Origin: Rhodopirellula sp.
Lineage (GTDB): Bacteria > Planctomycetota > Planctomycetia > Pirellulales > Pirellulaceae
Assembly (NCBI GenBank): GCA_002689655.1
Contig: NZHC01000128.1
Coordinates: 1 to 49,042, forward strand
Direction: 5' to 3'
Length of the DNA: 49,042 nt
The notes under the pieces were generated by a model. It worked only from the letters and a program-made list of their open reading frames with translations, was not told the origin of the DNA and made no database searches. Position 1 is the first letter of the stretch. Every line of letters begins with the position of its first letter. Below are positions 6,675 to 42,308 of the stretch, one piece after another. The position numbers and the translations under genes were made by a program.

Positions 6675-6685
6675 GTTTCTGCAAC

Positions 6686-9884: not shown

Positions 9885-9902
9885 TGAATTCTCGTGTTAT
9901 GA

Positions 9903-23399: not shown

Positions 23400-24827
23400 G
23401 TGTCAATCGATCGTCGCTCTTTTCTTGTCGCTTCCGCATCTGGTTGTGCAGGTTTGCGCCTAGGGGGACCAAGACTTCTATCGGCCGATGATAAGAGCTC
23501 TCCAGGAGCCTCCACATCCCGACAGCGAACACCCGGCGGCACCGCGAAATCAGTGATCCTGTTTTTCCTTTGCGGCGGTGCTTCTCACATCGACACATGG
23601 GACATGAAACCTGATGCACCCAGCGAGTATCGTGGTCCGTTCTCGCCGATTGCAACATCATCGCCCGAAATCAAATTATGCGAGCACCTTCCCTTACTTG
23701 CAAAACAGGCGCACCATCTGTCCGTCGTTCACTCCGTCGGTGGAACGGTGAACACGAATGATCACCACGCTGGCTACTACTACAATCTGACTGGGCATGT
23801 TCCCGACGAGACATTCAAAACGCAAGGCAATGATCGCAGGCCGTATTCCGATGATTGGCCATTCATGGGGTCAGTGGTCAGTTCGCGAGCAAATCGCCAA
23901 ACGACACTTCCGGGAGCGATCACTCTTCCCCACATGCCGAGCAGAAAACCTTATACGCGACCGGGCCAATTTGCTGCAAAACTGGGAGTGGAGTTTGATC
24001 CTTTGTACGTTGATGGCTCAGTGGACGAACCTCTCGTCTTCCAAGCCCCATCTCTGATGGTTTCCGGTGATGTCACCCGCGAACAGTTTCTATCCAAGCA
24101 ACAATTATTCAAGACTCTCGACAAAGCTCGCACAGAGTTCGATTCATCACCTCAGGTGCGCATTTGGAAGCAGCACCAAGAACGCACGATGAATCTGCTG
24201 TTGGCCAGTGAAACCACAACGGTATTTGACCTTGAAAAAGAACCGGTTTCAGTGCGCGAACGCTATGGAAAATCCATCAATGCGATGAGTCTTTTGCTTG
24301 CCCGACGCCTGGTGCAAGCAGAAGTTCCCTTTGTGACCGTTTTTTGGAAAGAGAACGAAAAAATCAAGGACAAGTGCAAGAGCGCTGGTGGATGGGACAC
24401 TCATGGCAACAACTTTGGCTGCCTGAAGGACCACTTGCTGCCTGAGTTTGACAAGGCATTTTCGGCGCTTGTAGAAGACTTAGCCAATCAAGGCATGTTG
24501 GACGAGACTCTGCTTGTCGTGAACAGTGAAATGGGACGCCAGCCCAAGATTGGAGACCGTCGATCGGGCGGTGTCAGTGGTGGGGGACGCGACCACTGGA
24601 CACATTGCCAAAGCGTTTTGATGGCGGGTGGCGGGATTCAAGGCGGGCAGTCCTTTGGCTCAAGTGATCGATTTGGCGAATACCCCAGCGATCATCCAGT
24701 CACCCCGGCCGACATCACCAAGACCGTTTACCATGCTACCGGCACACACGACCTGATTGCGCGGGATTCGCAAGATCGACCGTTCAGTCTGCTGGAACCC
24801 GGCAAGCCCATCATGGACTTGTTTTAG
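23400..24827 (+). CDS. DUF1501 family protein, GTG start
   Basis: A 475-residue DUF1501 protein starting with GTG, supported by GAGGAG 7 bp upstream and by a Tat signal right at the start (DRRSFLVASASGCAGLRL). Family landmarks: GGASHIDTWDMKPDAPSEYR, HHAGYYYNLTGH, WDTHGNNFGCLKDHLLPEFD, LDETLLVVNSEMGRQPKI and GGGRDHWTHC. The segment NSEMGRQPKI departs from the GEFGRTPKI seen in most paralogues here, while the GRDHW element is kept. It therefore belongs to a different DUF1501 subgroup, and its chemistry may differ. Its 3' end overlaps the convergent cytochrome-WD40 gene by 17 bp. Confidence 0.9.
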   Translation: MSIDRRSFLVASASGCAGLRLGGPRLLSADDKSSPGASTSRQRTPGGTAKSVILFFLCGGASHIDTWDMKPDAPSEYRGPFSPIATSSPEIKLCEHLPLLAKQAHHLSVVHSVGGTVNTNDHHAGYYYNLTGHVPDETFKTQGNDRRPYSDDWPFMGSVVSSRANRQTTLPGAITLPHMPSRKPYTRPGQFAAKLGVEFDPLYVDGSVDEPLVFQAPSLMVSGDVTREQFLSKQQLFKTLDKARTEFDSSPQVRIWKQHQERTMNLLLASETTTVFDLEKEPVSVRERYGKSINAMSLLLARRLVQAEVPFVTVFWKENEKIKDKCKSAGGWDTHGNNFGCLKDHLLPEFDKAFSALVEDLANQGMLDETLLVVNSEMGRQPKIGDRRSGGVSGGGRDHWTHCQSVLMAGGGIQGGQSFGSSDRFGEYPSDHPVTPADITKTVYHATGTHDLIARDSQDRPFSLLEPGKPIMDLF

Positions 24828-26304
24828 TCTTCCCGATTTTATCAGCGTCAGTGTTGGTGCCACTCGTTTTAACTTTCCCAGCACCTGTGGGCTGCGCAAG
24901 CCAGCTACTTAAAAGAGTTCCATCAGCGACGTTCCAAACTCGAATTTCACCGTCATGCGAACCGGTTGCCACCTTGGCTTGATTCGAGTGAATAGCAGAA
25001 CATAAGACCCAATCGGTATGCCCCTGAAACCGAGTGGCAACCTGATTCTTCGTGAGATCAACTTTGATCAATTTCTTGTCGCTTGAAGGAATCAAAGCGA
25101 AATCACCAGCCACTGCGATCCGGTACCCTTCACCACCAATAGCGACCTCAGCTGTTTTCTTGGCGTCCGAGACATTCCAACGATGAAGTTTTTTGTCATT
25201 TCCAGTAGAAACGATCTGCTTTCCATCTGGCAGCATCGAAACACCGCGGACCGCGCTGCCATGCCCCTGATAACTGATCAGTAACTGCCCTGTCTCTGCA
25301 TTGAACACCTTTGCCGTTTTGTCCCGACTCGCAGACACCAACTTTGTCCCATCCTTACTCCAGGCAATCGCGGTTACAAAATCGGCATGGCTGAGCAGAG
25401 TCTTCTGAACCCCGAGTGTTTCCATATCAACAATGCGAATCGTCTTGTCGGCAGAGGCAACCGCCAATTTTTTTCCATCCGGCCGAAAAGCCAAATCAAG
25501 GATAACGTCATCACAAGGCGCGAGGACTGCCGTGACTTGCTGGCTCGCCAAATCAATCACACGAACATCACCACCAAACCCGGGTCGACCACTGGCAACA
25601 ACAACTTGCTGATCGACGGACGCCTTGGCTGCACCGCTCTCGTTGTTTTTTCCTTCATCCGCTTGGACACCGCCGGAAAGAGGCGGAAAAACAATCGCAT
25701 AAGTCTGCTGCCCGACATTGCCAATTCGGTCTTGAAGATTTCCCTGCATGTCCCAAATCAGAATCTCGTTGTAACCGCCACTATAAACCAAATCACTTTC
25801 TGTTGAAAAAGCGATCGAGGTTACTTGCAACGGTGCAGGGTAACTGGTGGGTGCTGCCGGATGTTCCTGCGGTGGAATTACAAATGGCAATCTTGCATCA
25901 GGATCATCACCATCAAAGATCGCACCTTGATCAATCCAGTCTGACACCAGCTGGATTTGGTCCGCAGTCAACGCGTCTGTTTCGGCTGGCATGCGTTCAA
26001 ATGAATCTTCGACTATCAGTCGCCGCAACAATTCAGCACCATCATCTTTGCTGGCCTTCAAGGGCATCAGACCGCTGTCACCAGGCTTAGAAGACTCTGT
26101 GAATGTATCAATGCGATAACCACCCTCCGCTTTTTTTGCATCATGACACGCGACACAATTTTCCAAAAAAATGGGGGCAACGTCGCGTATGAAGCTGACA
26201 CCCCCATCTTCTGCACCCACAACACTCATCATCAGTAATGCGATCACCGTCGGCATGAATTCGGTCCGAAACCGTTGTAGACTTTTGTGAAATATGCGTT
26301 TCAT
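24811..26304 (-). CDS. PSCyt1 cytochrome c-WD40 propeller protein
   Basis: A 497-residue exported protein. The signal (MPTVIALLMMSVVGA) is followed by a PSCyt1 domain with haem motif CVACH (50-54) in NCVACHDAKKAEGGYRIDTF and a possible distal methionine in SFERMPAETDAL. The remainder is a WD40 propeller (SIAFSTESDLVYSGGYNEIL, AIAWSKDGTKLVSASRDKTA, GHGSAVRGVSMLPDGKQIVS, GSHDGEIRVWNV). The haem domain probably transfers electrons and the propeller docks partners. It is the last gene of the leftward cluster from 33957 and is clearly paralogous over its whole length to the protein at 40965-42308. Confidence 0.92.
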   Translation of the reverse strand: MKRIFHKSLQRFRTEFMPTVIALLMMSVVGAEDGGVSFIRDVAPIFLENCVACHDAKKAEGGYRIDTFTESSKPGDSGLMPLKASKDDGAELLRRLIVEDSFERMPAETDALTADQIQLVSDWIDQGAIFDGDDPDARLPFVIPPQEHPAAPTSYPAPLQVTSIAFSTESDLVYSGGYNEILIWDMQGNLQDRIGNVGQQTYAIVFPPLSGGVQADEGKNNESGAAKASVDQQVVVASGRPGFGGDVRVIDLASQQVTAVLAPCDDVILDLAFRPDGKKLAVASADKTIRIVDMETLGVQKTLLSHADFVTAIAWSKDGTKLVSASRDKTAKVFNAETGQLLISYQGHGSAVRGVSMLPDGKQIVSTGNDKKLHRWNVSDAKKTAEVAIGGEGYRIAVAGDFALIPSSDKKLIKVDLTKNQVATRFQGHTDWVLCSAIHSNQAKVATGSHDGEIRVWNVADGTLLSSWLAQPTGAGKVKTSGTNTDADKIGKTKTSP

Positions 26305-26409
26305 GCTTCAAAATTTGATTGGGAATCGGGTGTGTGGTGGGGGTGAGTGGGCTACCGATACTCTGAGACAACGGCTACGCCACCGGAAAATCAAATTTCG
26401 ATACTTCTT

Positions 26410-29400
26410 TCAATGTTGAAAAATAAATTCATCCGTATTCAACAGGGCCCAACAAACGTCTGCGAGTCCGTCAGCAGGCGTTTCACGCTTTCCGCAATGT
26501 TCGATTGCAGCATTCCGTTCATATTCTGTTGGCAAGCGACAAACAGACGCTAGGTACAAATCATCAAGAATTTCCAATAGTGGTAACTCACTCTTAAGGG
26601 CGACACGAAATCGATTTGATTCCTGTTGCAATTTTTTGTGAATGGTCGACCCATTGAACAATTCAATTGCCATCCCGAGGTTGGAATCGCTGGCGCGTTC
26701 GCAAGCACACACAGTACTGCGTTCTGGTTGGCCAAAAACTTTAAGAAAATCAAGCTTGACGAGATCCGGGGCAGGCAAATGAGTAGCCTTCGTACCCGTA
26801 GGCAAATTGGTGAATTTCTCTTCCAGCCCTGTTGCATGGTTGATCGCATCAAGCAACTGCTCGGCGCTCATCAAACGAGGTAGCTGATGCGAGAAATAGA
26901 CTTGATCATCACGATTTGAATCATTGGCAAGATAACTGGCCTGGTAGGTCCGACTGTTGAGAATTCTCCTAAGCAAGTACTTTCGATCAAATCCGTTCTG
27001 TGCAAAATCTCTTGCCAAAGCATCAAGCAGCGGCCCGTTGGAGGGCGGGTTAGAATCACGAAAGTCATCGATCGGTTCCACGATTCCTCGGGAAAAACAT
27101 TCACTCCAAATCCGGTTCGCCTCAATCTTGGCGAAATACGGATTCTCAACGTTCACAAGCCAGCCGACAAAAGCATCGCGACGATCTCCCTCAACGAGGG
27201 ATTCCACCGTCCCATCAACAGGTACCCAAGGCTTCATCTGCTGCCCTGTTCGAGGCTGAATAACTTCACCACTGACAGCTGACCAAACGAACATTTCACC
27301 TGGACGTTGCGTTTTTCGTCTTTGAACCCTCTGGAAGAAAGCTCCCAGCCCGTAATAGTTATCCTGAGTCCAGCGTTCGAAAGGGTGATTGTGACACTTG
27401 GCACATTGCAAGCGAGCTCCGAGAAAAACCTGGGAGACAGTTTCCACGCAGTCATTCATGCTGGTGGCTGTGCGATAAAAATTCGCTGGCGGATTGGATA
27501 ACGTGGAACCATCGGCAGACAGCAGTTGCCTGGCGAATTCGTCATACGGCATATTGGTCCGAAACGCTTCTTCAACCCAACGGTGATATTTATGAACCCC
27601 CTCTTTTCCAACCAACTGACTTGTCATCTTGAGCAAGTCACCCCACTTCAAGGCCCAGAACTTTGCGTATTCTTCACGCTCTAGCAACTGGTCGACCAAC
27701 GCAGCGCGTTTACCCTCAGACGTGTCTGCAAGAAACGCCTTGCTTTGCTCAACCGTGGGTAGAATACCGATCACATCCAGATAGACACGTCTTAGGAACT
27801 CCGAGTCATTGCACGTTTCCGATGGAAGGTATTGAATCTGCTTCAGCTTTGCATTAACGAGTTCGTCGATGTAATTTGCTTCCGGAGACGATATCCACTG
27901 GAAGCTGGGATTCCTGTGAACAAACATGAATGGAACGGATTCAATATGCTCCAGGAAACGAACCAAAATCACCGCCTCGCCTTGAGTTCCAGCCTCGACC
28001 CATCCAGATTCGTCAACTGCCGCGACGGTTTGGTCAGAGCTTTCATAAACAACCAGATCCGTCACATCCCGCGATGATCCATCCGAGAAATGAGCAAGCA
28101 CTGACAGCTGTTGTCTTCCCTGCTCAAGCGCCATGATTCTCTTCTGCGCAGGATAAACTTCCAAACGCACACAGCGTGATGCCTCAGGCGCGTCAGGCTG
28201 AGCCCCCTCGGCAATCCAATCACGTAGAATTTGATAAGCCGGATCATCGGGCTGAAGTTGCTTGCCCCCGCCATGGCTAACTTTCATCAGTGGTTTCTGC
28301 AACAGTAAACTTTGCTCGGGTTGTATTCGGTTAACACGTCGACCAAAGTCCTCACGGATCAACGTGAGGAGATCCAGTTCTTGATCGAATCCCCTCAGCG
28401 AAAGCCGGAACATTCCCTTCCCGCTAGGTGAACCATGACATGCACCTGAGTTACACCCCTGCTTTGAAAGTGCCACTAGAACTTCAGACTCAAAGGCAAC
28501 ATTGCGGTGTTTTCCGACAACTGACACGCGGACCGGCACATTGACTTGCAGCGACCCAACCCGCACGACTAGCTCAGTAACACCATCGGCCTTCGGATAA
28601 ACCACACCGTCGCGAACTTCTGCAACAGTTTCATCAAGACAACTGAAGACGGCCTCCCGTGTCCAGTCCTGCGGCACCTGCTCAGCATCGTAACCAGTCA
28701 CCACCAACTGGCGTCTGGATGATTTTCCTATCAGCTCAATTTCCCCTGGATGCACGTGAATACTTTGGGGCATACTCGCAATCGGCAATGAAGATAAATC
28801 ACTGACAAATTTAAGCGGTTTCCCCTGATACTGGCTCACGACCTCAATACTGATAACACCCTGCTCTACAGTATTGTCCGCTGGCAGAGTCACATTAAAA
28901 ACGGCAGCATCCTGATCTGCCGCCAACGTAATTGATTCAGATACATTCCATCCTTTTGGAAGCAATGTAAATGCAACCTCCACTGGCTGAGGATCATCTC
29001 CTTGTCGCTCAACATTCAGAGAGATTGAATGCGTTTTCCCAGCGACCAGTGGCTCCGACGCTGATACACTCACTTTCACCGGATCGATCCACTCAATGGG
29101 AAACGCCTTTTCGGTCACTCGTCCCCTGCCATTGAATTCAGAATAGGCCAGAAATGAGATGGAGGAAGGCTCATCCTCCGGATTCAGGCGAGACCCGGTA
29201 AGGGCATAAGTGTCTTTGTCAGCCTTGGCAGCAATGTTCCATTGGCGATTGGATTGATCTGTCAAAAGCGTTAGACCTGACTTGAACTTGTCATTCGTTC
29301 GTTTCAAAACAAGCGTCGCCTGATGACTCTGTTGCTGCCTAGCAAATTGCAACACCGCTTCTGGTTCGAGCGAATAATAATCATCTCCTGAGGTGGTACC

Positions 29401-31035
29401 GCTGAGAAAGACAATGCCGTCCTGCCAACTGTCAGGAAAGGGAACATACGGACGTTTAGCACGATGCAGGTCCAAGCTATTGACTGACACCTCGAGCGGC
29501 ACCTTCCCTGAAACATTCCCTTTCAGCTCAACCAGCGATGAACTTTCGGCATTCCAATTTTCATCAGCGAGTAAATAGATTTTTGCTGCCTTTACTTTCG
29601 CTGGTACGCGTGGGTTCAAAATCCGCAGCCCTTGCACAGGTCTCGTGAATGACAGGTCAATTTCACCGTCATAACCGAAACGCCCGATTTCCAGCTCCAG
29701 CACACAGGCTCCGTGCTCAAGCTCAATGACGAATTCTTCTCGGATCTTTGCATCAGGCTTGAACGCCAAGTCAACGCGGCCCGAGGGTAGAACTTCTACC
29801 AAGTAACCAAAACCTTCACCTCCACGGCCCAGCAGATCTGATGCCCGCAGACGATAGGAACCGTTGGACGGAAACTTGTAATCGAAGCTCCATTCATCTG
29901 CATCTGTGACCTTTGACTCAGCAACCACTTTTTCCTGATCATCTAGCAGCTGCATTTTCAGCAATGCCATTGATCCAAGACTGCGAGTTCGCGAGCGAAA
30001 TCGCACAGTCTCATCTTTGACTCCCGTGATCAAATATTCATCCCGCTCGCCCGCGGCGGCCAATGTTCCATTGATTCCAACGGGATAGGCCAGAAGGCTC
30101 GGCCCCTCGCCTTCGATGTGCTGTGGCGACGAACTGACATGAATCGACTGCCAAGCCGACACTTGCCCGTCCTTGAAGTGAAAGGAAAGATTTTTACCAG
30201 CGTCGCAGACGCTGTTCTGCACAGCGATTTCACGCTGCGAAGACTGATGATCCCCAAGTGTCGACACCTTGATGTCTGCTGCCTCACCGCGTTTGACTGC
30301 GAGCGGAAAGCAATGGCTGACTAGAGGAAAATCGCCAATCCTCAGGTGATAATTTCCACCTGAGGCATATCCACTGTCTTTGATTTCAACGACATAGTCT
30401 CCGGCCGTCGCAAATTGGTGTCGAAAACGACACTCGGCCCCAACACCATCATCGTCCGAAACCAGGACTGGTTTTCCATCAGTCGTGAGTACCCGAATAG
30501 CTGGATCCATTGTTGAAGCGATACATTGCGTGAGCGCTTCTACAGTAATCCACTGATTTTCATCAACATGGATTTGGTAATAGTCCAACGATGCCCCATC
30601 ACTCTCGCCATCAATCGCAATTTGCGAAGGAACCTTCTGCGCGGTAGAGAGGGAATGATTGTTACCATCATCCGAAACCACACTCAAATCATCAACCAAA
30701 ACAGCAGTCGGAGCAATAGAGCCCGCATTAGTCGCTGCCCATAGGCCGATCGATCCCAAGGGTGTTTCCGCCGGCACGGTCAATTGAATGACTGCCTTTT
30801 CCGGTTCGACTGAATCGATACTAATTTGCGAACTGCCGCGAGCAAGAAATCGGAGAGTGGAGTCGAATCCCTTACCAATAACGGTCAACTGGGTAGTGCT
30901 GCCAGGCTTGACCGATCGCGGCATGATGGCAGTGATCGATTGCGCCCGCACAGGACCATCGCCCAAACACAACAGCAGTATCCAAATCAGGGAAAGCAAA
31001 CGCATGTTGCACGAACCAGATAAAGTGAATTTCAT
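26410..31035 (-). CDS. Giant PPC-domain, CX4CH cytochrome, DUF1549/DUF1553 fusion protein
   Basis: About 1541 residues from ATG 31035. The frame opens further upstream to 31404 but there overlaps the DUF1501 gene, and ATG 31005 is an alternative. After the signal (LLSLIWILLLCLGDGPVRAQ) come a TIG-like strand set, at least two pre-peptidase C-terminal (PPC) sandwiches (YYQIHVDENQWITVEAL, GDYVVEIKDSGYASGGNYHL), and Big2-like domains. Then come a haem motif of unusual spacing, C861-X4-C866-H867 (GCNSGACHGSPSGKG), DUF1549/PSCyt2 with CAKCH (1211-1215, CAKCHNHPFERW), and DUF1553/PSD1 (VENPYFAKIEANRIW, ILNSRTYQAS). It is an exported dihaem protein with ligand-binding sandwiches; its reaction is unknown. 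It lies between DUF1501 and cytochrome-WD40 genes in one leftward unit. Confidence 0.9.
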   Translation of the reverse strand: MKFTLSGSCNMRLLSLIWILLLCLGDGPVRAQSITAIMPRSVKPGSTTQLTVIGKGFDSTLRFLARGSSQISIDSVEPEKAVIQLTVPAETPLGSIGLWAATNAGSIAPTAVLVDDLSVVSDDGNNHSLSTAQKVPSQIAIDGESDGASLDYYQIHVDENQWITVEALTQCIASTMDPAIRVLTTDGKPVLVSDDDGVGAECRFRHQFATAGDYVVEIKDSGYASGGNYHLRIGDFPLVSHCFPLAVKRGEAADIKVSTLGDHQSSQREIAVQNSVCDAGKNLSFHFKDGQVSAWQSIHVSSSPQHIEGEGPSLLAYPVGINGTLAAAGERDEYLITGVKDETVRFRSRTRSLGSMALLKMQLLDDQEKVVAESKVTDADEWSFDYKFPSNGSYRLRASDLLGRGGEGFGYLVEVLPSGRVDLAFKPDAKIREEFVIELEHGACVLELEIGRFGYDGEIDLSFTRPVQGLRILNPRVPAKVKAAKIYLLADENWNAESSSLVELKGNVSGKVPLEVSVNSLDLHRAKRPYVPFPDSWQDGIVFLSGTTSGDDYYSLEPEAVLQFARQQQSHQATLVLKRTNDKFKSGLTLLTDQSNRQWNIAAKADKDTYALTGSRLNPEDEPSSISFLAYSEFNGRGRVTEKAFPIEWIDPVKVSVSASEPLVAGKTHSISLNVERQGDDPQPVEVAFTLLPKGWNVSESITLAADQDAAVFNVTLPADNTVEQGVISIEVVSQYQGKPLKFVSDLSSLPIASMPQSIHVHPGEIELIGKSSRRQLVVTGYDAEQVPQDWTREAVFSCLDETVAEVRDGVVYPKADGVTELVVRVGSLQVNVPVRVSVVGKHRNVAFESEVLVALSKQGCNSGACHGSPSGKGMFRLSLRGFDQELDLLTLIREDFGRRVNRIQPEQSLLLQKPLMKVSHGGGKQLQPDDPAYQILRDWIAEGAQPDAPEASRCVRLEVYPAQKRIMALEQGRQQLSVLAHFSDGSSRDVTDLVVYESSDQTVAAVDESGWVEAGTQGEAVILVRFLEHIESVPFMFVHRNPSFQWISSPEANYIDELVNAKLKQIQYLPSETCNDSEFLRRVYLDVIGILPTVEQSKAFLADTSEGKRAALVDQLLEREEYAKFWALKWGDLLKMTSQLVGKEGVHKYHRWVEEAFRTNMPYDEFARQLLSADGSTLSNPPANFYRTATSMNDCVETVSQVFLGARLQCAKCHNHPFERWTQDNYYGLGAFFQRVQRRKTQRPGEMFVWSAVSGEVIQPRTGQQMKPWVPVDGTVESLVEGDRRDAFVGWLVNVENPYFAKIEANRIWSECFSRGIVEPIDDFRDSNPPSNGPLLDALARDFAQNGFDRKYLLRRILNSRTYQASYLANDSNRDDQVYFSHQLPRLMSAEQLLDAINHATGLEEKFTNLPTGTKATHLPAPDLVKLDFLKVFGQPERSTVCACERASDSNLGMAIELFNGSTIHKKLQQESNRFRVALKSELPLLEILDDLYLASVCRLPTEYERNAAIEHCGKRETPADGLADVCWALLNTDEFIFQH

Positions 31036-31105
31036 TATTTGACATTTCAACATCATGAACGGATCGCGTTCAAGTGACAGGTGCTTGAACGAGACAACTG
31101 ACGGA

Positions 31106-32581
31106 TCAAAGCAGACCGGGAATAGGCTGCCCGTGGTAGATCTGGTGAGGCCGTTCGGCCGCATCACGCCAAACTGCCGTGGCTGGAATACCGAGTGCAC
31201 GATAAATCGTGGCCGCAAAATTTTCTGGGGTGACTGGTTCCTCATTCGGATACCCACCCTGTTCATCTGAAGCACCAATGACGTTGCCGCCACGAACCCC
31301 TCCCCCTGCGAACCAGACCGACTGCACTGCTCCCCAGTGATCGCGTCCCGGCAATTCATAGTGTTTCTCCAACAGGCTGATTTGGGGCGTCCGCCCAAAT
31401 TCACTTGCCATCACGATCAAGGTTTCGTCCAACTCACCGGTCGCTTGGAGGTCATCCAACAAAGCAGAAAGAGCTTTGTCGGTGGGTGGTAGAAGTTTGT
31501 TTTTCAAATGGGGAAACGCATTCCCGTGTGTGTCCCATGTCTCATCATTACCCAAATTTACCTGCACGAGATTTACCCCTGTTGATATCAGGCGTCTGGC
31601 CATCAACAGCGACCAACCGAATGAGTTGGCGCCATACCGTTCCAGGGTCCTTGGGTCAGCATTGGTCACATCGAGGGCATGGTGTACTGAAGAATCGGTC
31701 AGGAGATCAATTGCTCCCTGCCGCAATCGATCAAACTGTGTCGTTTCGGCGTGTGCGCCGAGGTGTTGTCGCTGATGCTGCAGCGTTTCCAAAAGCTGCA
31801 AACGACCACTGACCTCTTTCATTCCCAGGCCATGCGGCAAACTCAATTGGGGTGCCTGGAAAATACGTTTGTCTGAACCTCCTCGCTCCTGATGGTCAAA
31901 ATCGTGCGTTGGGAAAGCACCGTAAGATTTTGAATGAAAAGGGGAGGCATCAATCATCCAGGGATCATACTGGGCTCCCATTTCGCCTGAGTCCTGCCCG
32001 GGGATCACTCGCCCAGAATTATGAACTAGTCTTTCGGGCAACACGACCGCTGGCGGGAGGTTGTTAACGGATTCTGTGGCACGTCCGGCAATAGCAGCAA
32101 TGGAAGGGCGATCGGTCCGACTGGGCTCATTTGGCTTGAAACCCGGCGGCAACTTTGAATGGCCTGTCAAAATCATGTGATGCCCGGCCGAATGTTCATT
32201 CGACCCATGAGTCAAAGAGCGGCACACGGCCCACTGTTCACTGCGTTCTGCCAACCGAGGCAAGTGTTCGCAAATCTGAAGCCCAGGCGTTTTAGTCGAG
32301 ATGGGCTGGAACTCACCGCGAATGGTATCAGGAGCATTCGGCTTCATATCGAAGCTTTCATGCTGCGCCAGACCGCCTGACAGAAAAATAAAGATGCACG
32401 ACTTTGCTTTACCGGCAGGGGTACTGCTGTCGGCGGCCACAGCCTGACGCAAACCGGTCAAATGGTTCAAGCCCATCCCCAACAGACCAATTGACCCAAT
32501 TTGCAAAGCCTCACGACGAGCCAAACGGGGGTGAATGCAACTTCCTTCTAAAGCACGGTGTTGTGACTTCCGATTCTTCAT
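31106..32581 (-). CDS. DUF1501 family protein (second of tandem pair)
   Basis: A 491-residue DUF1501 protein with a twin-arginine signal (LARREALQIGSIGLLGMGL). Landmarks: FIFLSGGLAQHESFDMKP, HSAGHHMILTGH, DETWDTHGNAFPHLKNKLLP, ASEFGRTPQISLLEK and ELPGRDHWGAVQSVWFAGGG. Its start ATG overlaps the stop of the upstream DUF1501 gene in ATGA, so translation is probably coupled. The tandem pair suggests either a heteromer or two related specificities; this is inference. It precedes the giant DUF1549/1553 gene by 70 bp. Confidence 0.91.
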   Translation of the reverse strand: MKNRKSQHRALEGSCIHPRLARREALQIGSIGLLGMGLNHLTGLRQAVAADSSTPAGKAKSCIFIFLSGGLAQHESFDMKPNAPDTIRGEFQPISTKTPGLQICEHLPRLAERSEQWAVCRSLTHGSNEHSAGHHMILTGHSKLPPGFKPNEPSRTDRPSIAAIAGRATESVNNLPPAVVLPERLVHNSGRVIPGQDSGEMGAQYDPWMIDASPFHSKSYGAFPTHDFDHQERGGSDKRIFQAPQLSLPHGLGMKEVSGRLQLLETLQHQRQHLGAHAETTQFDRLRQGAIDLLTDSSVHHALDVTNADPRTLERYGANSFGWSLLMARRLISTGVNLVQVNLGNDETWDTHGNAFPHLKNKLLPPTDKALSALLDDLQATGELDETLIVMASEFGRTPQISLLEKHYELPGRDHWGAVQSVWFAGGGVRGGNVIGASDEQGGYPNEEPVTPENFAATIYRALGIPATAVWRDAAERPHQIYHGQPIPGLL

Positions 32582-34276: not shown

Positions 34277-35695
34277 ATGTCATTCGAAATCTTCGCCCCG
34301 CCCACCCCCGCTACCCCTACCTCCGCCGCAGCCCCTTTCCAGGACTCAAGCATGCTCGAATTCGGACAATTCAAAGCAAATACTTGCAATGGCGTTGGAC
34401 GCCGTGGATTCCTTAAAACGGCGGCCAGCATTCCGGTTGCTCTCGGTGCCGGAATCCCCACGCTTGCTGAAGCAGAAGAAGCTCGCCGACGCGCTAAAGC
34501 AAAGTCGGTACTGCTGTTGTGGCTCTGGGGTGGACCAAGCCATATCGACATGGTCGACCCGAAACCCGATGCACCGATGGAATACCGCGGCCCCTTCGGC
34601 ACCATCCCCACCAAAACAACCGGCATGCGATTTACCGAACTGCTTCCCCGACTAGCATCCAGAAGCGATAAGTTCAGCGTGATCCGTTCGATGCGAACCA
34701 GTAATGGCGGACATCCTGGTGCGGGCACGGTTGGTTTGACAGGCTACGAAGAAAACGCCGGACCTGTCCAACCCAACTTTGGCTCAATCATCGCCAAGCA
34801 CCGTGGCCAACATGATGCCTTGCCACCATTTTTCTACGTCGGCCAAGGCATTCCACGCGACCTGCCAAGACGTATCGAGGGCTATGGTGGAGGAACGCTT
34901 GGAAAAGCGTATGACCCTTTTTTAGTGAGCTGTAGCGAACAGGGAAAAGTTGGAATCCCAACCCTGAAAATGCTACCGGGAATGACACCTAACCGAATCA
35001 CAGATCGCAGGCATTTACTCACACAATTGGATCAGACGCAAAAACAATTGGACAATGCCCGCATCAGTGACTGGAATCGCTCGTACCAAGCTGCTTACGG
35101 CTTGCTGACCAAACCAGGAGCCCGCCAAGCGTTTGATCTCACGGAAGAATCAGAAAGCACCCGTGAAGCCTATGGACAGACAACCTTTGGGCAAAGTTGT
35201 TTACTGGCAAGACGTCTCGTCGAAGCCGAAGTCCCTTACGTGCAAGTCAACTGGAGTGAATACGTCGAAACGTTCACCCCCAATGGTGACTTTGGTTGGG
35301 ACACACACATTTACAATTTTGAACTTTTACAGGATCGGCACTGCCCAATTTTCGACCGTGCCTTCAGCGCACTGCTGGACGACCTCTATGACAGAGGACT
35401 GATGGACGACACCCTTGTGATTGCCATGGGTGAATTTGGCAGAACGCCACGAATCAGCAACCGAGCTGCACGAGAACACTGGCAACATTGTTACTTCTCC
35501 ATCTGGGCGGGTGCAGGTGTCCAGCCGGGACGCTGCATTGGGCAAAGTGACGCCAAGGCTGAACATCCGGTAACTCGCCCCATCACTCCTCTGATGGCCG
35601 GAACCACAATCAGTGAATTATGCGGCGTAGGCGCCAGAGAACGGGCGGAAATGAAAGTTCTCGATGGTGGCAGCCTGATCCACGAACTGCTGTAG
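34277..35695 (+). CDS. DUF1501 family protein heading the rightward cluster
   Basis: Up to 472 residues. ATG 34277 gives a Pro/Thr/Ala-rich leader (APPTPATPTSAAAP) ahead of the Tat element; ATG 34352, preceded by AGGA, would place GRRGFLKTAASIPVALGAG near the N-terminus as in the paralogues, so either start may be real. Landmarks: LLWLWGGPSHIDMVDPKP, GHPGAGTVGLTGYE, WDTHIYNFELLQDRHCPIFD and GEFGRTPRI. The usual GRDHW element is replaced by AREHWQHC, an Asp-to-Glu change in the most conserved part. The gene is followed 33 bp later by the TolB-like gene. Confidence 0.9.
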   Translation: MSFEIFAPPTPATPTSAAAPFQDSSMLEFGQFKANTCNGVGRRGFLKTAASIPVALGAGIPTLAEAEEARRRAKAKSVLLLWLWGGPSHIDMVDPKPDAPMEYRGPFGTIPTKTTGMRFTELLPRLASRSDKFSVIRSMRTSNGGHPGAGTVGLTGYEENAGPVQPNFGSIIAKHRGQHDALPPFFYVGQGIPRDLPRRIEGYGGGTLGKAYDPFLVSCSEQGKVGIPTLKMLPGMTPNRITDRRHLLTQLDQTQKQLDNARISDWNRSYQAAYGLLTKPGARQAFDLTEESESTREAYGQTTFGQSCLLARRLVEAEVPYVQVNWSEYVETFTPNGDFGWDTHIYNFELLQDRHCPIFDRAFSALLDDLYDRGLMDDTLVIAMGEFGRTPRISNRAAREHWQHCYFSIWAGAGVQPGRCIGQSDAKAEHPVTRPITPLMAGTTISELCGVGARERAEMKVLDGGSLIHELL

Positions 35696-35728
35696 CCTCA
35701 ATTCAACCGACGACTTCCCAGACAAGCC

Positions 35729-36613
35729 ATGACACTTTTGATGCCACGCTCAATCCTTCTCGGCAACCTTCTTTTGGCAATCACACTGACAACATCGTTG
35801 TCAGCAACTGAGCCAGTGCGATTGACTCATGACGGATCCCTGAAACGGGATCCTCGTTTCGTCAACGAAGGCAAGGAACTCGTTTATTGTTACGACGAGG
35901 CCCCGGACTTGATCCGCATGATGCGGCTTCATCTTGACAAACCAAACCCCAAACCGATGTTTGACAACTCAGGTGACAAACACCAGTTGGAACCCTTCTT
36001 CTCGCCTGATGGTCGATACATCGTCTTCACGGAGTGCACTGGCAACCTTTCTGCAAGGCTTGTGATCCGGGAACAGGAGAGCAAAAAAGATGCCTACATC
36101 ACCCACAGTGGTCGCGGAGGTACGCGGAGCCCCTGTTTTTCACCATCAAGCGACCTCGTTGTCTATGCATTTGCAGAAACAGGGCCTCAGCATTTGTGGT
36201 CAGTGAAACCGGATGGCACTGACAAAAAACAGATCAACGAAACTCAGGGCATCAGTAATTGGCCAACATTCACACCGGATGGCAAGCGTCTGGTCTATTC
36301 CAACAGTCGCGAAAACAATTATGAAATCTACTCGATGAATCTTGATGGCACGGCAGAGGAGAGACTCACAACCAACAACCTGATGGATATCCGCCCGATG
36401 GTCTCACCCGATGGAAGCAAGATCGCGTTCACGAGCACGCGTGACGGCAACTATGATATCTATGTCATGGACATTGACGGTTCCAAAATCAAGCGGATCA
36501 CGGAGTCCGAAGAACGCGATGACTATCCGACCTGGCACCCTGATGGCGAACGTCTGGTTTATGTAGGCGAACGCGCGGGAAAATTCGATTTATACATGGT
36601 TCAGGTGCCGTGA
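35729..36613 (+). CDS. TolB-like/PD40 beta-propeller protein, exported
   Basis: A 294-residue protein with a Sec signal (ILLGNLLLAITLTTSLSA) and then about five PD40/WD40-like blades. Repeated lines include FSPDGRYIVFTE, FTPDGKRLVYSNSRENNYEI, VSPDGSKIAFTSTRDGNYDI and WHPDGERLVYVGERAGKFDL, each with the DGxxLxYxS core. Such TolB-type propellers bind proteins or glycans and usually have no catalysis. It is unique to the rightward cluster; the leftward mirror cluster lacks it. Its stop overlaps the next ATG in TGATG, so coupling is likely. Confidence 0.88.
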   Translation: MTLLMPRSILLGNLLLAITLTTSLSATEPVRLTHDGSLKRDPRFVNEGKELVYCYDEAPDLIRMMRLHLDKPNPKPMFDNSGDKHQLEPFFSPDGRYIVFTECTGNLSARLVIREQESKKDAYITHSGRGGTRSPCFSPSSDLVVYAFAETGPQHLWSVKPDGTDKKQINETQGISNWPTFTPDGKRLVYSNSRENNYEIYSMNLDGTAEERLTTNNLMDIRPMVSPDGSKIAFTSTRDGNYDIYVMDIDGSKIKRITESEERDDYPTWHPDGERLVYVGERAGKFDLYMVQVP

Positions 36614-38340
36614 TGCGGCTCAACATTTCACAGCCATCCGCTGGATCATTAGCACCACACTGCGGATTTCAATTCAAAAGACTCACGCGGCCCTCCCTTC
36701 AGGTGCTTGCATTTCACTGCTTGCTGTCTTTGGCGTTCATTGCTCTGCCCCAGTCTGGACTGGCGGTAGAACTTCGAGATTCAGATCAAGTCTCATTGCA
36801 CCCGACAGAGCCTACCGAGCTCACGCTCACAGGCCAGAACCTTCGTTCCGAATCGGGGCAGGTCGCTGACCTGTGGTGCAGTTCACCCGTGACTTTTGAG
36901 GTCATGGATCCTGAAAACAAAGATCGCAATCGCGTTCGTTACCGCGTTACACCCACGAAACCGATGGGCGGCGTTGTCACGATTCGTGCCTATACCGCAG
37001 ACTCCGTATCACAGGCACTACTTTTTTTCGTTACTTCTCCGGCAAGTCAGGGCATCCCCTCTGACACAACTCCTCCCCTGAAGCCACCCTTCGGGATTGA
37101 TCTTAAATCGAAAAGTAATGGAGACACCACGATTCACTTTGAGTGCAACAAGGGGCAGATACTGTTTGCTGAAATCATCGGCTCACGAATCGGCAGTTCA
37201 GTTGATGGCGTGCTGATCCTATCAGATGCTAACAAACGGGAACTGACGTTCGCTGACGATCATCCGATGACAGGTAGCGATCCGATTCTGAAATGGACTG
37301 CCGAATACTCGGGCCTTCATCATCTGACCATCAAAGACGTGGAGTATCGCGGGGGTCTGCGAATGCATTTACGGGTGAGCGAAGAAACAACAGCAGGCCG
37401 GACCGTTCCATCAGCTATCCGACGCGGAGAAACGAGACGTTTAAAAGTCACCACGGCCTCACATCCAGAACCTCTCTGCGAACAAGTCGTGCACATTGGC
37501 ATGAGCGAGGCCCCCGGTCTCGGTTACGTACCGCAACGTTCAATCCTGTCTCCGTTCATCAAATCTGACCAACCTGTGTATACCGAAACTGAAAGCGAAC
37601 GGCTTCCCGTCCCTGCACTGTTCTGCGGAAAAATCGAGTCTGAGAAAGAGGTTGACAGCGTCACCTTTGATGCCCGCAAAGGTGAAACGATCACCATCAA
37701 ATTCCTTTCAACGGACGGTCCATTCGTCGGTGACTTGCGGTTGTTCCGCAAGAACCAGAAGGTGCGTGACCATCACTTCGGGCGGGACCCGAACAACAGC
37801 CTCAAATACAAGGTGCCCGAAACAGATACTTATCGGATCGAGATTCGTGAGGTTCTGAACAGGTTCGGAATCGGTTTTGAATATTGCGTCTCTCTTCGCA
37901 ACGATCTCGCGCCAACGGTGCTACGAATCGCTCCAGTCAAGCCTGGTGATCGGCGAATACGCAATGACAAGCCACATCGCCAGGTTTGGTTCAACGACGA
38001 AACCCTGCCCATTCTCGTTCGCGCCGACCGACGTGGGTTTGACGGTCCGATCACTTTGCATGCAGAGCTCGATGGAAAACGATGTAAAGTCGATGGACGC
38101 ATTGCGGAGAAGAAGAACGAAACTGAAATGCAGATCCATCTTCCGGAAGCAAGTCCCAATCGCGAACTGAAGACTCTCAGGATTTTCGGCAGCTGCGACA
38201 TCGAGGGCAACTCCATGTACATCCCCCTTGACCTGAGTGAACACATCAAACGTGATTTCGAAGAATTCACTACAATTCCGGCAAATGCAGGACACACCAT
38301 TGCGGTTGTCGTAACACCGTATGAAGAGAAAAAGAAATGA
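36613..38340 (+). CDS. PPC-type beta-sandwich protein (counterpart of N-terminal half of the giant fusion)
   Basis: About 575 residues; ATG 36613 lies inside the overlap with the TolB-like gene (GTG 36610 also in frame). A hydrophobic stretch (LAFHCLLSLAFIALPQSGLA) after a long n-region is a likely signal. It has a TIG-like first sandwich (PTELTLTGQNLRSESGQ), a PPC-like domain (WTAEYSGLHHLTIKDVEYRG) and a second PPC-like domain (FDARKGETITIKFLS, YKVPETDTYRIEIREVLNR). There is no haem motif. The layout matches the N-terminal half of the 26410-31035 protein. Its stop overlaps the start of the DUF1549/1553 gene in ATGA, so the two products are probably made in step and associate. Confidence 0.82.
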   Translation: MRLNISQPSAGSLAPHCGFQFKRLTRPSLQVLAFHCLLSLAFIALPQSGLAVELRDSDQVSLHPTEPTELTLTGQNLRSESGQVADLWCSSPVTFEVMDPENKDRNRVRYRVTPTKPMGGVVTIRAYTADSVSQALLFFVTSPASQGIPSDTTPPLKPPFGIDLKSKSNGDTTIHFECNKGQILFAEIIGSRIGSSVDGVLILSDANKRELTFADDHPMTGSDPILKWTAEYSGLHHLTIKDVEYRGGLRMHLRVSEETTAGRTVPSAIRRGETRRLKVTTASHPEPLCEQVVHIGMSEAPGLGYVPQRSILSPFIKSDQPVYTETESERLPVPALFCGKIESEKEVDSVTFDARKGETITIKFLSTDGPFVGDLRLFRKNQKVRDHHFGRDPNNSLKYKVPETDTYRIEIREVLNRFGIGFEYCVSLRNDLAPTVLRIAPVKPGDRRIRNDKPHRQVWFNDETLPILVRADRRGFDGPITLHAELDGKRCKVDGRIAEKKNETEMQIHLPEASPNRELKTLRIFGSCDIEGNSMYIPLDLSEHIKRDFEEFTTIPANAGHTIAVVVTPYEEKKK

Positions 38341-40841
38341 ACATCGCTGCAATGAATCGTACTGAGTACTGGCAACGACCATGGATCGTTCTTTCCATCT
38401 TCATGGCAGTCGCATGTTTTACCGAATTGGCTTCACTGCCTTGCCTTGCCGACCACACGAGCAATCAGCAAGTCATCACAGTGCATCCTGCGACCTATCA
38501 GATCACCGGAAAGCGTGATCCACTGCAGTTAATTGTCACTGTCTCGGAAAAGGAACAAACACTCGACGTGACTCGCGACTGCACCTATGAAGTAAAAACA
38601 GACGCTTTGAGCGTAACAGAAGCTGGACTGGTAACCCCAAAAACAAATGGAAAAACCACCATCACCATTCGCTGGCAAAACCTGAGATGTCAAGCAACGG
38701 TCGAAGTCATCCATATAGAAAAACCCCAACCGATGTCATTCGACTATGACGTGCTCCCGATCCTCGCCCAGACCGGCTGCAGCGGGGGGTCATGCCACGG
38801 GGCGCCTCACGGCAAAGCTGGTTTCCAGCTGTCGCTGTTTGGCTCTGATCGCGAGTTGGATCGCATTTCCCTAACCCAAGAACTGTACGGACGTAGAATC
38901 AACCCAATTGAACCTGCGAAGAGTTTGCTGCTTCAAAAGCCAAGCATGCAAATTGCTCATCAGGGGGGGAAGCGTTTCGCTGACTCGGAGCGACCTTACG
39001 CTGTCCTTCATGACTGGATCTCGGAAGGTTGCCAGAACAAAACAGCGGAGGTCGCATGTATCGGGATCGAAGTTTACCCACAGGAAAACAGGCTTCTAAA
39101 ATCTCCAGCGTGGCAACAGCAGTTCTCTGTGATCGCCAGTTTTGAGGATGGCACAAGACGTGATGTCACCCAATTATCCAAGTACGAGACTTCGGACCCT
39201 TTAGTTGCAGTGACAAATCGCACAGGTTTAGTAACAGGTTTGCGGCGTGGTGAAGCAGCCATCATCGTTCGCTATCTCAACCACATCGAAACTCCGCTGA
39301 TGACTTTCGTCAGGGACGCCAAAGATTTTCGGTGGGCAGCACCGATACCAGTGAATGATGTCGACATTCATGTTCAGGCCAAGCTTAAAAAACTCAAGTT
39401 CCTGCCAGCAACACGGTGCAAGGATCATGAGTTTATCCGGCGTGTCTTCCTCGATACGATCGGCATCCTTCCCACCCAAGTCGAAGCTGACGCATTCGTA
39501 GCTGATAATAGCCCGGACAAAAGAGGCGTCCTAATCGATGAACTACTCGAAAGAAAAGAATTTGCGAGATTTTGGGCGCAAAAATGGGGTGATCTCCTAC
39601 GCATTTCCACCAAGCTGATCGGAACCGCGAGTACCCATAAATTCAACCGGTGGCTTGAACATAGCGTATTGAGCAACCAGCCCTATGACGCATTCGCCCG
39701 CGACATTCTGCTTGCAACCGGCAGTACACGTCAGTATCCAGCTGGCAACTTCTACCGGTCAGCCGGCGACACGAGTGATGCAATGGAAACAGCCGCACAG
39801 GTCTTTCTTGGAACAAGAATCCAATGTGCGAAATGCCACAATCATCCTTTTGAACGTTGGACACAGGAAAACTACTATGGACTGAGCGCCTTTTTCAATC
39901 GAGTCGAAAGATCAAGAACCTCCCGCAAGGAAGAAATCCTGCTCTGGTCACGAGACGATGGTGAGGTCCAACTGCCAACCACAGGCGAAGCAGTGGAACC
40001 GTGGGTTCCAGGCGCTGACAGCATCCCGAACCTCCCAGGTGATCGTCGACAAGCCTTTACCAACTGGTTGACCACCAACGAAAACCCGTTGTTTGCAAGG
40101 GTGGAAGTCAATCGGATCTGGAGCCATCTGATGGGGCGCGGGATTGTCGAGCCATTCGATGATTTCCGTGATTCCAATCCACCCGCGAATGCTCCCCTGC
40201 TGAACTCACTTGCAAAAATGTTCGTTAAAAGTGGGTACGACCGAAAACAGATCATCCGGATCATTTTGAATAGCGAAACCTACCAAGCTTCATCGCAACC
40301 GACCGAAAATGATCAAAGCGGACTCAAATACGCCTCGCATTACCAGTCTCGAATTCTGACGGCTGAACAGTTGGTCGACGCTCTAGGGTTGGTCACCGGT
40401 AAACCAAAAGCTTTTTTTGGTGTCCCGACGGGAACACTGGCAACCTGGCTGCCCGCTCCGGACCTGAGACCCCACGACCGAGGTAGGATTGGTGACATTG
40501 AATTCCTAAAGGTATTTGGCCAACCCGAGAGGCAAAGCGCGTGCGAATGCGAACGCAGCGATGACGTGAGTCTGGGGCAGGCACTCGAACTGATTAATGG
40601 AAAACTGGTCGCAGACATGTTGTCCGATCGCTCCAACACCTTCCACCAGCAACTTGATGCTGGCATCGAACCCAGCACAATCATTGACTCTATTTACCGA
40701 CGTGCCCTGTGCCGCTCTGCTAGTGAAGAAGAAATGAAAATCCACAGCGACTACCTGGCAAGACATCAGGACATTCACCTTGCGATGGAAGATATCTGCT
40801 GGGCAATTCTGAACCGCACAGAATTCCTGTTTCAACACTGA
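38337..40841 (+). CDS. CX4CH cytochrome-DUF1549/DUF1553 (PSCyt2/PSD1) protein
   Basis: An 834-residue exported protein. The signal (WIVLSIFMAVACFTELASLPCLA) is followed by a Big2-like domain. A haem motif of CX4CH spacing (C148, C153, H154; GCSGGSCHGAPHGKAGF) comes next, then a second Big2-like segment. DUF1549 has CAKCH (497-501) in CAKCHNHPFERW, and DUF1553 has ENPLFARVEVNRIWSHLMG, FDDFRDSNPPANAPLL and ILNSETYQAS. It is the counterpart of the C-terminal half of the 26410-31035 fusion; matching segments such as RINPIEPAKSLLLQKPSMQI are easily aligned by eye. It has two predicted haem sites, and its reaction is unknown. The next gene, cytochrome-WD40, follows after 123 bp. Confidence 0.91.
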   Translation: MNIAAMNRTEYWQRPWIVLSIFMAVACFTELASLPCLADHTSNQQVITVHPATYQITGKRDPLQLIVTVSEKEQTLDVTRDCTYEVKTDALSVTEAGLVTPKTNGKTTITIRWQNLRCQATVEVIHIEKPQPMSFDYDVLPILAQTGCSGGSCHGAPHGKAGFQLSLFGSDRELDRISLTQELYGRRINPIEPAKSLLLQKPSMQIAHQGGKRFADSERPYAVLHDWISEGCQNKTAEVACIGIEVYPQENRLLKSPAWQQQFSVIASFEDGTRRDVTQLSKYETSDPLVAVTNRTGLVTGLRRGEAAIIVRYLNHIETPLMTFVRDAKDFRWAAPIPVNDVDIHVQAKLKKLKFLPATRCKDHEFIRRVFLDTIGILPTQVEADAFVADNSPDKRGVLIDELLERKEFARFWAQKWGDLLRISTKLIGTASTHKFNRWLEHSVLSNQPYDAFARDILLATGSTRQYPAGNFYRSAGDTSDAMETAAQVFLGTRIQCAKCHNHPFERWTQENYYGLSAFFNRVERSRTSRKEEILLWSRDDGEVQLPTTGEAVEPWVPGADSIPNLPGDRRQAFTNWLTTNENPLFARVEVNRIWSHLMGRGIVEPFDDFRDSNPPANAPLLNSLAKMFVKSGYDRKQIIRIILNSETYQASSQPTENDQSGLKYASHYQSRILTAEQLVDALGLVTGKPKAFFGVPTGTLATWLPAPDLRPHDRGRIGDIEFLKVFGQPERQSACECERSDDVSLGQALELINGKLVADMLSDRSNTFHQQLDAGIEPSTIIDSIYRRALCRSASEEEMKIHSDYLARHQDIHLAMEDICWAILNRTEFLFQH

Positions 40842-40964
40842 CACAGCAATGACCCGCTGGCTACAACCACGTCCAATGGTTCGACGCCACTGATTATCCC
40901 AACGCTGATCATCTTGGACAAACCGTTGTAAACATTCGATTTCCAGGGCACTTGGCGAACACAA

Positions 40965-42308
40965 ATGAGCAGCAATCAAGCAGTCTACCGGAGGCAGTGG
41001 CGACTTCTTTGGATTTTTGTTTTACTGTTTTGCGCTGGTCGCCAAGTGAAAGCAGATGATGCGATCAGTTTCGCAACCAGGGTGGCACCGCTGTTACAAC
41101 AGCAGTGTGTGACCTGCCATGATGCCGAATTGGCAGAAGCAGGCTACCGGCTAGACACCTATAAACATTTGGTGCGACTGGGGGATGGCAGTCCTGCTGT
41201 GATTGCTGAAAAACCTGACAAAAGCAAACTTTTTCAGGTCCTGATTCACGAGGATGAAAACTCACGCATGCCATCGGAAAGCGATCCGCTTCCCGACACC
41301 TCGATTAATCTGATCAGAAATTGGATCCAACAAGGAGCTGCCTTTGACGGAGCCTCTGAAGATCAATTACTCAGTTCACTTCTGCCTAAAACAGAACATC
41401 CCCAACCCCCAAAAAACTACCCGGCTGCCATCCCGTTGTCTGCCATAGCGTTTCACCCCTCACAAAGCCAGTTATTGGTGAGTGGTTATCACGAGATCAC
41501 AATATGGAATCTGAAGGGCGAACTTGTTAATAGAATTACCAACCAAGGCGAGCGAACCTACGCGATTGATATCCACCCCACACTCCCACACGTTCTAACT
41601 GCCAGTGGAACCCCGGGTGTGACCGGCGAGGTAAGAATCTTTAATTTATCCACGGGCGCATTGGCATCGGTGCTAGCGACCGCTGATGAAGTAATCATGG
41701 ACGCCCGATACAGTCCTGACGGCAATACCATTGCAGTAGCAATGCCAGATGGATCAACCCGTTTGATTGATTCCAAAACGGGCTCTGAAAAAAGGCAGCT
41801 CTTAGGCCATTCAGATCAGGTGTGTTCGGTGTCTTGGCACGCCGATGGAAAACGACTTGCAACAGCCAGCCGTGATCACACAGCCAAAATTTTCGATTGC
41901 CAAAACGGGTTGTCTGTGGCAACTTTCACGGGGCACACCAAATCGGTTAACGACGTAGCGTTTGTCAACCATGATCAGGCGGTCAGCGTTAGCGATGATG
42001 GAACAGCACAACTTTGGAATGCAGACAACGGAAAACGCATGCGGGAAATGGCGAGGAACAAAACGCCCATTTTGACGCTGTCGATAGCACCCGAAAAAAT
42101 CGCCGTTTCTGGAGCGTTGGAAACACAATGGTTTAAACGTGACGGCCGCCAAAGCATTAAGCGATTCACTGATTCAGATGCTTGGACGACGATAACAGTT
42201 TTTGATTCATCTGGTGAAATCTTCGCCGCCGGCACCCAATCCGGTGAAATTGTAGTCCGCCAAAAGGAACAGGAACCAATCCGATTCAACGCTATCCCGG
42301 GCCGCTAA
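40965..42308 (+). CDS. PSCyt1 cytochrome c-WD40 propeller protein
   Basis: A 447-residue exported protein with signal LLWIFVLLFCAGRQVKA, a PSCyt1 domain with CVTCH (48-52) in QCVTCHDAELAEAGYRLDTY, a possible distal Met in SRMPSESDPL, and a WD40 propeller (VMDARYSPDGNTIAVAMPDG, VSWHADGKRLATASRDHTAK, FTGHTKSVNDVAFVNHD). It is a whole-length paralogue of 24811-26304 and holds the same terminal position in its cluster. A likely role is electron transfer with protein docking in the periplasm alongside the DUF1549/1553 protein. Confidence 0.92.
   Translation: MSSNQAVYRRQWRLLWIFVLLFCAGRQVKADDAISFATRVAPLLQQQCVTCHDAELAEAGYRLDTYKHLVRLGDGSPAVIAEKPDKSKLFQVLIHEDENSRMPSESDPLPDTSINLIRNWIQQGAAFDGASEDQLLSSLLPKTEHPQPPKNYPAAIPLSAIAFHPSQSQLLVSGYHEITIWNLKGELVNRITNQGERTYAIDIHPTLPHVLTASGTPGVTGEVRIFNLSTGALASVLATADEVIMDARYSPDGNTIAVAMPDGSTRLIDSKTGSEKRQLLGHSDQVCSVSWHADGKRLATASRDHTAKIFDCQNGLSVATFTGHTKSVNDVAFVNHDQAVSVSDDGTAQLWNADNGKRMREMARNKTPILTLSIAPEKIAVSGALETQWFKRDGRQSIKRFTDSDAWTTITVFDSSGEIFAAGTQSGEIVVRQKEQEPIRFNAIPGR

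Follow-up and report, generated by a model that had tools for sequence, protein, structure and literature searches.

The closest described systems to the locus reported here are clusters of genes for planctomycete-specific cytochrome c (PSCyt1–3) and PSD1–5 domains (PMC5615132). In the sections of that paper drawn on here, PSCyt2 and PSCyt3 genes usually adjoin two families of unknown genes, and the PSCyt/PSD proteins are given no known functions, carbohydrates being pointed to. A further point of comparison is RB10051 of Rhodopirellula baltica, which combines DUF1553 with DUF1549; the part of PMC2754498 used here suggests its regulation by the extracytoplasmic function (ECF) factor RB10049 and a redox role. 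The present locus lies on contig C114 of a Rhodopirellula sp. genome (7.09 Mb in 156 contigs), bases 1–49042 of which were analysed as one stretch and are called the window. It shares with the described clusters, as far as those sections of PMC5615132 go, the same PSCyt/PSD combinations, Big_2 and WD40 companions and sulfatases nearby, and with RB10051 the domain pair DUF1553 and DUF1549. It differs from the clusters of PMC5615132 in that two such operons stand head-to-head, one on the minus strand (m, or minus) and one on the plus strand (p, or plus), and no earlier report of such a pairing was found among the open-licence papers searched. Each operon begins with DUF1501, a family with 80 genes in the whole genome. 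We take DUF1501 to be one of the two unknown families beside PSCyt2 and PSCyt3; the main text of the cluster description leaves it unnamed.

These are gene clusters of a known kind, and their history is a case of ordinary, well-resolved genome evolution. There is little doubt that two ancient paralogous operons, already separate, were brought head-to-head, so that the locus arose by rearrangement and not as a mirror-image copy. The explanation as a whole, in which this history is joined to separate promoters and an inferred function, we regard as highly probable.

Gene content of the two operons

The genes of the two arms, listed outward from the spacer between them, are as follows.

Plus arm
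34352–35695, plus strand: D1501p, DUF1501 of the plus operon (Pfam E 2.5e-79; own 23-row clade; reading frame opens at 34277)
35729–36613, plus strand: PD40p, TolB-like beta-propeller (Pfam PD40 E 5.8e-43; NCBIfam TolB propeller E 7.9e-62, under cut-off)
36610–38340, plus strand: UNKp, immunoglobulin (Ig)/PPC-like, counterpart of the BIGm N-terminal part
38337–40841, plus strand: CYTp, Big_2 plus dihaem DUF1549/DUF1553 (Pfam PSD1 E 1.5e-46, PSCyt2 E 3.6e-46; 33-row p clade)
40965–42308, plus strand: WDp, PSCyt1 (CVTCH) plus WD40 propeller (Pfam PSCyt1 E 4.3e-12, WD40 E 2.2e-23)

Minus arm
32578–33957, minus strand: D1501m1, first DUF1501 of the minus operon (Pfam E 5.9e-86; twin-arginine leader)
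31106–32581, minus strand: D1501m2, second DUF1501 of the minus operon (Pfam E 1.9e-83; own 24-row clade)
26410–31056, minus strand: BIGm, Ig/PPC-like region fused to dihaem DUF1549/DUF1553 (Pfam PSCyt2 E 3.7e-51, PSD1 E 2.6e-36; m clade)
24811–26304, minus strand: WDm, PSCyt1 (CVACH) plus WD40 propeller (Pfam PSCyt1 E 1.3e-9, WD40 E 5e-36)

Open reading frames (ORFs) and Pfam scans thus gave the plus arm as DUF1501 (p), TolB-like PD40 propeller, PPC-like protein, dihaem DUF1549/DUF1553 and PSCyt1–WD40, and the minus arm as DUF1501 (m1), DUF1501 (m2), the fused Ig/PPC-like and dihaem protein, and PSCyt1–WD40; an NCBIfam scan returned no family above its cut-off. The divergent arms that the initial annotation had drawn outward from 33958–34276 were borne out by this layout, and its DUF1501 assignments by Pfam matches on both sides. 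Its DUF1549/DUF1553 proteins with CX4CH and CXXCH motifs were likewise found in both arms (CSGGSCH and CAKCH in CYTp, CNSGACH and CAKCH in BIGm), with PSCyt2 (DUF1549) and PSD1 (DUF1553) in one protein far over the Pfam cut-offs, and the p and m dihaem parts align at 46% identity over 809 columns. The CXXCH-cytochrome–WD40 proteins that it placed at both ends contain PSCyt1 and WD40 and align over most of their length (35% identity, 433 aligned columns). The mirror symmetry proved only partial: the divergent layout is real, but the second minus DUF1501 gene and the plus propeller, which has no counterpart in the minus arm, had been overlooked. The PPC assignment also held in part. The UNKp window protein stays below the Pfam cut-off (E 0.019), but PPC was matched in 16 of the 18 members of its alignment, the window protein included (E up to 0.5, best 1.7e-15), and hhalign pairs UNKp with the N-terminal part of BIGm (probability 100, 19% identity).

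Three gene overlaps of 4 bp, at m1/m2 and at the propeller/PPC and PPC/dihaem junctions of the plus arm, are in keeping with operons. The plus DUF1501 gene had been started at 34277, a position that falls 12 bp past the predicted −10 box (see below); an ATG at the position equivalent to 34352 is kept in the relatives compared, and the gene probably starts there, which would make the spacer 33958–34351 (394 bp). For BIGm the start is uncertain within 31005–31056, where the candidates stand before a leader-like stretch. A start at 31056–31005 is likelier than one at 31404, the ORF 26410–31404 overlapping its neighbour because the frame is merely open upstream.

The two operons are ancient paralogues

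Trees were quick searches with the Shimodaira–Hasegawa-like approximate likelihood ratio test (SH-aLRT) as sole support measure and without a mixture model, and contained or identical sequences were dropped beforehand (dihaem rows from 173 to 125, DUF1501 rows from 148 to 122). The family sample was 60 genomes of a larger family, and loci were selected for their resemblance to the p dihaem protein, from a candidate list longer than the part kept, which leaves m-only and distant types under-sampled. In the 125-row DUF1549/DUF1553 tree, p formed a clade of 33 rows (SH-aLRT 100) and m a clade of 67 rows (98), the former reaching Verrucomicrobiota, with rows labelled Roseibacillus and Opitutales and rows of several planctomycete families. 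Among the remaining rows, 15 that score nearer m fell outside both clades and 10 were other paralogues of the window's own genome (G000). The WD40 tree (96 rows after ORFs >620 aa and near-copies were dropped) placed the window's p and m proteins apart and broadly followed the dihaem tree; for both proteins the p and m members of the genus lie in separate clades, each across many genera. In the 122-row DUF1501 tree, p (23 rows), m2 (24) and a further window gene, D1501far (13; see below), were each one clade at 100, and m1 (21 rows) was one clade that includes one row labelled other by score. Here m1 and m2 were sisters (support 96.8 with 38 rows, 90 with 122 rows).

Approximately unbiased (AU) tests were run on subsets, 48 of the 125 dihaem rows and 38 of the 122 DUF1501 rows. 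For the dihaem proteins, the window's p and m as sisters were rejected (P = 3.4e-4), as was a single clade of p and m from the subclade of genomes with paired operons (P = 5e-54) or from the whole genus (P = 3e-45). For DUF1501, the window's m1 and p as sisters were rejected (P = 8e-98). The separate clades across genera, the different pairing of the DUF1501 genes and the AU rejections together indicate a juxtaposition of old operons and not a local copy.

Several results weigh against this history. The best match of the plus dihaem protein elsewhere in the genome is the minus dihaem protein (816 bits; next 513), and the best match of the plus WD40 protein in the genome is its minus counterpart. 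One clade of all p and all m1 DUF1501 proteins was rejected weakly (P = 0.031), and a clade of p, m1 and m2 was not rejected (P = 0.19), so that a common DUF1501 ancestor of both operons is possible. Finally, Roseibacillus loci (L046, L047, L048, L049 and L068) carry a p-type dihaem protein with a WD40 protein that falls on the m side on a long branch, a mismatch due either to exchange of the WD40 gene or to long-branch error.

The resemblances between the arms far exceed chance. Inside the genome the p and m dihaem proteins (46–47% identity), like the p and m WD40 proteins (35%), are mutual best matches, the m-to-p direction being read within the window. A duplication is plausible if these matches are taken alone, and an inverted duplication of the whole operon in place, followed by divergence, had been put forward in the initial annotation. 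It would also account for the related domains that both arms carry in equal order. The DUF1501 genes already made such support doubtful within the genome: identities are 36% for p versus m1 and 39% for m1 versus m2, and by BLAST two copies elsewhere (L120, 236 bits; L123, 235 bits) outscored m1 (223 bits) as matches of D1501p. The genome search with DUF1501 appears to lose close neighbours (m2 was unlisted despite 280–292 bits to m1), and absences in it carry no conclusion. With 80 DUF1501 genes, among which 17 neighbour pairs lie <12 kb apart (8 tandem, 6 convergent and 3 divergent, the window's included), some mirrored clusters are to be expected. Short of wholesale transfer or conversion having produced the same trees, duplication in place was ruled out by the separate orthologue clade that each arm has across genera and by the AU rejections. 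In the preset tree test, the closest relatives lie in other genomes, often at separate loci, and the gene pairs differ in history. The genus also contains p-only and m-only genomes, the propeller is confined to p, and the paired DUF1501 genes and the fusion are confined to m. We therefore give the inverted duplication almost no chance, whereas the trees support the annotation's other proposal, an assembly of two related operons. They settle how one mirrored pair of abundant, functionally obscure operons arose, and they caution that mutual best matches within one genome are no proof of local duplication.

At a deeper level, p and m may have been founded by an ancient duplication of a PPC, dihaem and WD40 unit, with DUF1501 recruited independently and the pairing following much later. 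We put the chances of this at about even, and it refines the juxtaposition of two old operons without opposing it. The dihaem and WD40 trees concur on p versus m for the planctomycete rows, and the DUF1501 tree does not join p with m1; on the other side stand the Roseibacillus WD40 proteins, which fall with m despite their p-type dihaem partners, and, for the independent recruitment, the unrejected clade of p, m1 and m2.

A tail-to-tail mirror pair was seen elsewhere in the genome (G000:C48:20222–28831), where two further DUF1501 genes converge across a 169-bp gap with a PSCyt2-type ORF behind each.

The juxtaposition maps to one subclade of the genus

The genus survey covered 22 genomes, the window's own included, with the dihaem query at E ≤ 1e-200. 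Matches were obtained in 16 genomes, p-type in 13, m-type in 14 and both in 11; with G076, whose p contig also carries m genes, 12 genomes have both operons. Only p was found in G068 and only m in G061, G063 and G069, and six genomes, some incomplete, had neither at this threshold. Identities to the window in the genus were 83–96% for p DUF1501 (the 83% row being a G073 fragment with a stop) and 69–93% for m1, 61–87% for p and 56–92% for m dihaem proteins, 42–84% for WD40 (the range of the WDm orthologues in m loci) and 36–85% for PPC. Among the nearest-relative candidates, the kept part of a longer list, the nearest named relatives of the plus dihaem protein were metagenome genomes labelled Rhodopirellula or Rubripirellula.

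The operons stand head-to-head in 8 of the 12 two-operon genomes, the window's own included. Six show this within one contig (G000, G064, G065, G066, G067 and G076; in G066, contig C148 extends from the N-terminus of m1 across the spacer into p), G075 through a contig-end overlap of 139 bases with 2 mismatches, and G046 through a 26-base repeat overlap, which is weak evidence. These eight genomes form one clade in the dihaem tree (support 100). Outside it, G078 has both operons on one strand with ~35 kb between their DUF1501 starts, and the operons lie on different contigs in G072, G073 and G077, where no m1 match was found upstream of p in the ~5.8, 9.6 and 2.0 kb fetched respectively. The p orthologues of these four genomes branch beside the paired subclade. 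The simplest account has a single juxtaposition in the genus: the p and m operons would have been brought head-to-head in the common ancestor of this subclade and retained since.

It is conceivable, although rather unlikely, that the genus acquired the plus operon horizontally, ahead of its placement next to a resident minus operon. The p clade does hold rows labelled Verrucomicrobiota and several planctomycete families, and the distribution is patchy, with three m-only genomes, one p-only genome and six with neither at threshold; the p orthologues of G072, G073, G077 and G078 beside the paired subclade place any such arrival before the juxtaposition.

Some neighbouring arrangements were also noted. 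An amidase gene beside WDp is kept in G064, G065, G066 and G046, not in G067. Head-to-head pairing with another partner was seen in G063, which gave no p operon: its m operon is paired there with a distant PSCyt2-like ORF (28% identity to BIGm) followed by a DUF1501 ORF (L180:2889–8933). Outside the genus, a p operon of Pirellulaceae bacterium ALOHA_ZT_40 stands opposite a lone m2-like DUF1501 gene (59% identity to the window's m2; L041:3456–6544), the 3.4 kb retrieved past that gene giving no m-type cytochrome match.

Each arm has its own conserved promoter-like site

33958–34351, no strand: divergent intergenic region, 394 bp, from the alignment of six genomes with an unbroken spacer
34014–34042, minus strand: predicted minus-operon promoter, TTGCAT-N17-GACAAT, coinciding with one best conserved segment
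34237–34265, plus strand: predicted plus-operon promoter, TTGAAA-N17-TGGAAT, coinciding with the other best conserved segment

Conservation was read from the six of eight paired genomes whose spacer is unbroken, in which 73 of the 394 columns are invariant. The best two separate 29-column segments start at 34014 and 34237 with 16 invariant columns each. Shuffling single columns never gave two segments as good (0 of 20000), and shuffling ten-column blocks did so 230 times in 20000. The two promoter-like sites lie 194 bp apart with poorly conserved sequence between them. Before m1, the minus site was found by pattern in seven of the eight paired genomes and by eye in the eighth (G046, on the partner contig); the plus site was found by pattern in seven of the eight and by eye in G067 (TTGAAA-N17-TGCTAT). 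The related TTGAAA-N17-TGTAAT precedes the stand-alone p operons of G068, G072 and G073, and in G061, G063 and G078 no m site was found ahead of m1; together these results suggest that the p site is the older of the two. In its extended form each site matched the genome only at its own place (≤3 mismatches for m, ≤2 for p), and the two forms are unalike.

From this conservation, the arms are likely to have two separate promoters, one each. Each arm would use its own site for transcription; of these, the p site would predate the juxtaposition, and the m site would have arisen or been gained in the subclade. Three results speak against such promoters: before p in G077 and G078 the loose pattern gave other hits but no p-type site; the site was not found in the 330 bases taken, with approximate anchors, at 8 p loci of more distant genomes; and a sigma-70 scan of the spacer gave 0 sites at threshold, the predicted sites resting on conservation.

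The initial annotation had assumed a shared promoter region. A single bidirectional control region that co-regulates both operons could draw on the mere 394 bp between the start codons and on an arrangement kept in all eight subclade genomes (two of them via contig-end overlap). Set against it are the two separate conserved sites with poorly conserved sequence between them, each site in its extended form being genome-unique and unlike the other, and the plus one also standing before three stand-alone operons; other neighbours, such as the amidase beside WDp, are retained too, and so the retention is not special. We consider a single control region doubtful and favour the two separate promoters, with which joint regulation of the arms may remain compatible. 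Quite improbable, in our estimate, is that the head-to-head order constitutes a functional switch for alternative substrates, co-regulated through the 394-bp region, with the m promoter gained at pairing; if true, the pairings in G063 and at L041 would make head-to-head pairing a general habit of such operons.

The idea that the spacer contains a repeated element was rejected, with no second genome copy at E ≤ 0.001. Short tandem repeats lie between m1 and the promoter-like site in G065 (L173, ~16220–16517) and in G046 (ends of L110 and L111), and the G046 assembly breaks at these repeats. In contrast with R. baltica and its RB10049, the Pfam matches shown for 25 scanned ORFs of the window included no sigma-factor domain.

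Possible functions of the two gene sets

All four window DUF1501 proteins considered here (m1, m2, p and D1501far) match PF07394 above the cut-off (E 1.8e-75 to 5.9e-86) and have twin arginines in their leaders. The predicted model of D1501p (mean predicted local distance difference test score, pLDDT, 79.7) gave 133 Protein Data Bank (PDB) matches at E ≤ 0.001. Sulfatases make up most of the 50 listed, other alkaline-phosphatase-like enzymes are matched too, and the carrageenan sulfatase 6b0j is the best match (E 5e-8). Its fold thus resembles that of the sulfatase/alkaline phosphatase superfamily in the model, whereas the sequence-profile match is weak, the best solved sulfatase reaching E 0.38. 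Invariant residues of D1501p include D317, H319, R364 and H376. The haem-motif residues of CX4CH and CXXCH are kept in 124–125 of the 125 dihaem rows, own-genome paralogues included, and a C-x-C downstream of the motifs is kept in 113 of the 115 p- and m-type rows, with gaps in the remaining two. The same count, 113 of 115 with two gaps, holds for a C-x-C-x-R near the C-terminal end of CYTp (residues 736–740), which was also seen in most of the 10 other paralogues.

Each operon would encode an exported set in which a DUF1501 hydrolase works beside electron-passing proteins, the dihaem DUF1549/DUF1553 and the monohaem WD40 protein. The likely targets may be carbohydrate-derived compounds, with related but different substrates for the two operons, a suggestion that we make tentatively. 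At the level of protein families, it is reasonable to view the locus as one periplasmic redox/hydrolase apparatus in two versions. Points to the contrary come from both kinds of protein. The structural matches of D1501p have low TM-scores (~0.4), and no formylglycine-type motif was found at an N-terminal position; a loose C/S-x-P/A-x-R motif occurs only at residue 273 of m1 and residue 162 of D1501far, with none in p or m2. For the dihaem protein (model pLDDT 81.7), the PDB search gave Ig-like or unrelated folds only and nothing for the core. The p and m orthologue groups and their gene content are now defined and can be used to ask what role each operon has.

Neighbouring genes in the window

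23400–24827, plus strand: D1501far, DUF1501 (Pfam E 1.8e-75; own 13-row clade), part of the conserved m locus and outside the mirror

D1501far converges on the minus operon, overlapping it by 17 bp, and many of the loci compared keep it next to their m operon. Other neighbouring ORFs of the window encode a sulfatase, a lactonase and an esterase that has a gluconolactonase-like part. On the minus strand at 2117–13831, the window also carries a DUF1501 gene, two genes of the PSCyt3/PSD type, two HXXSHH (DUF1552) genes and one gene for a leucine-rich repeat protein.

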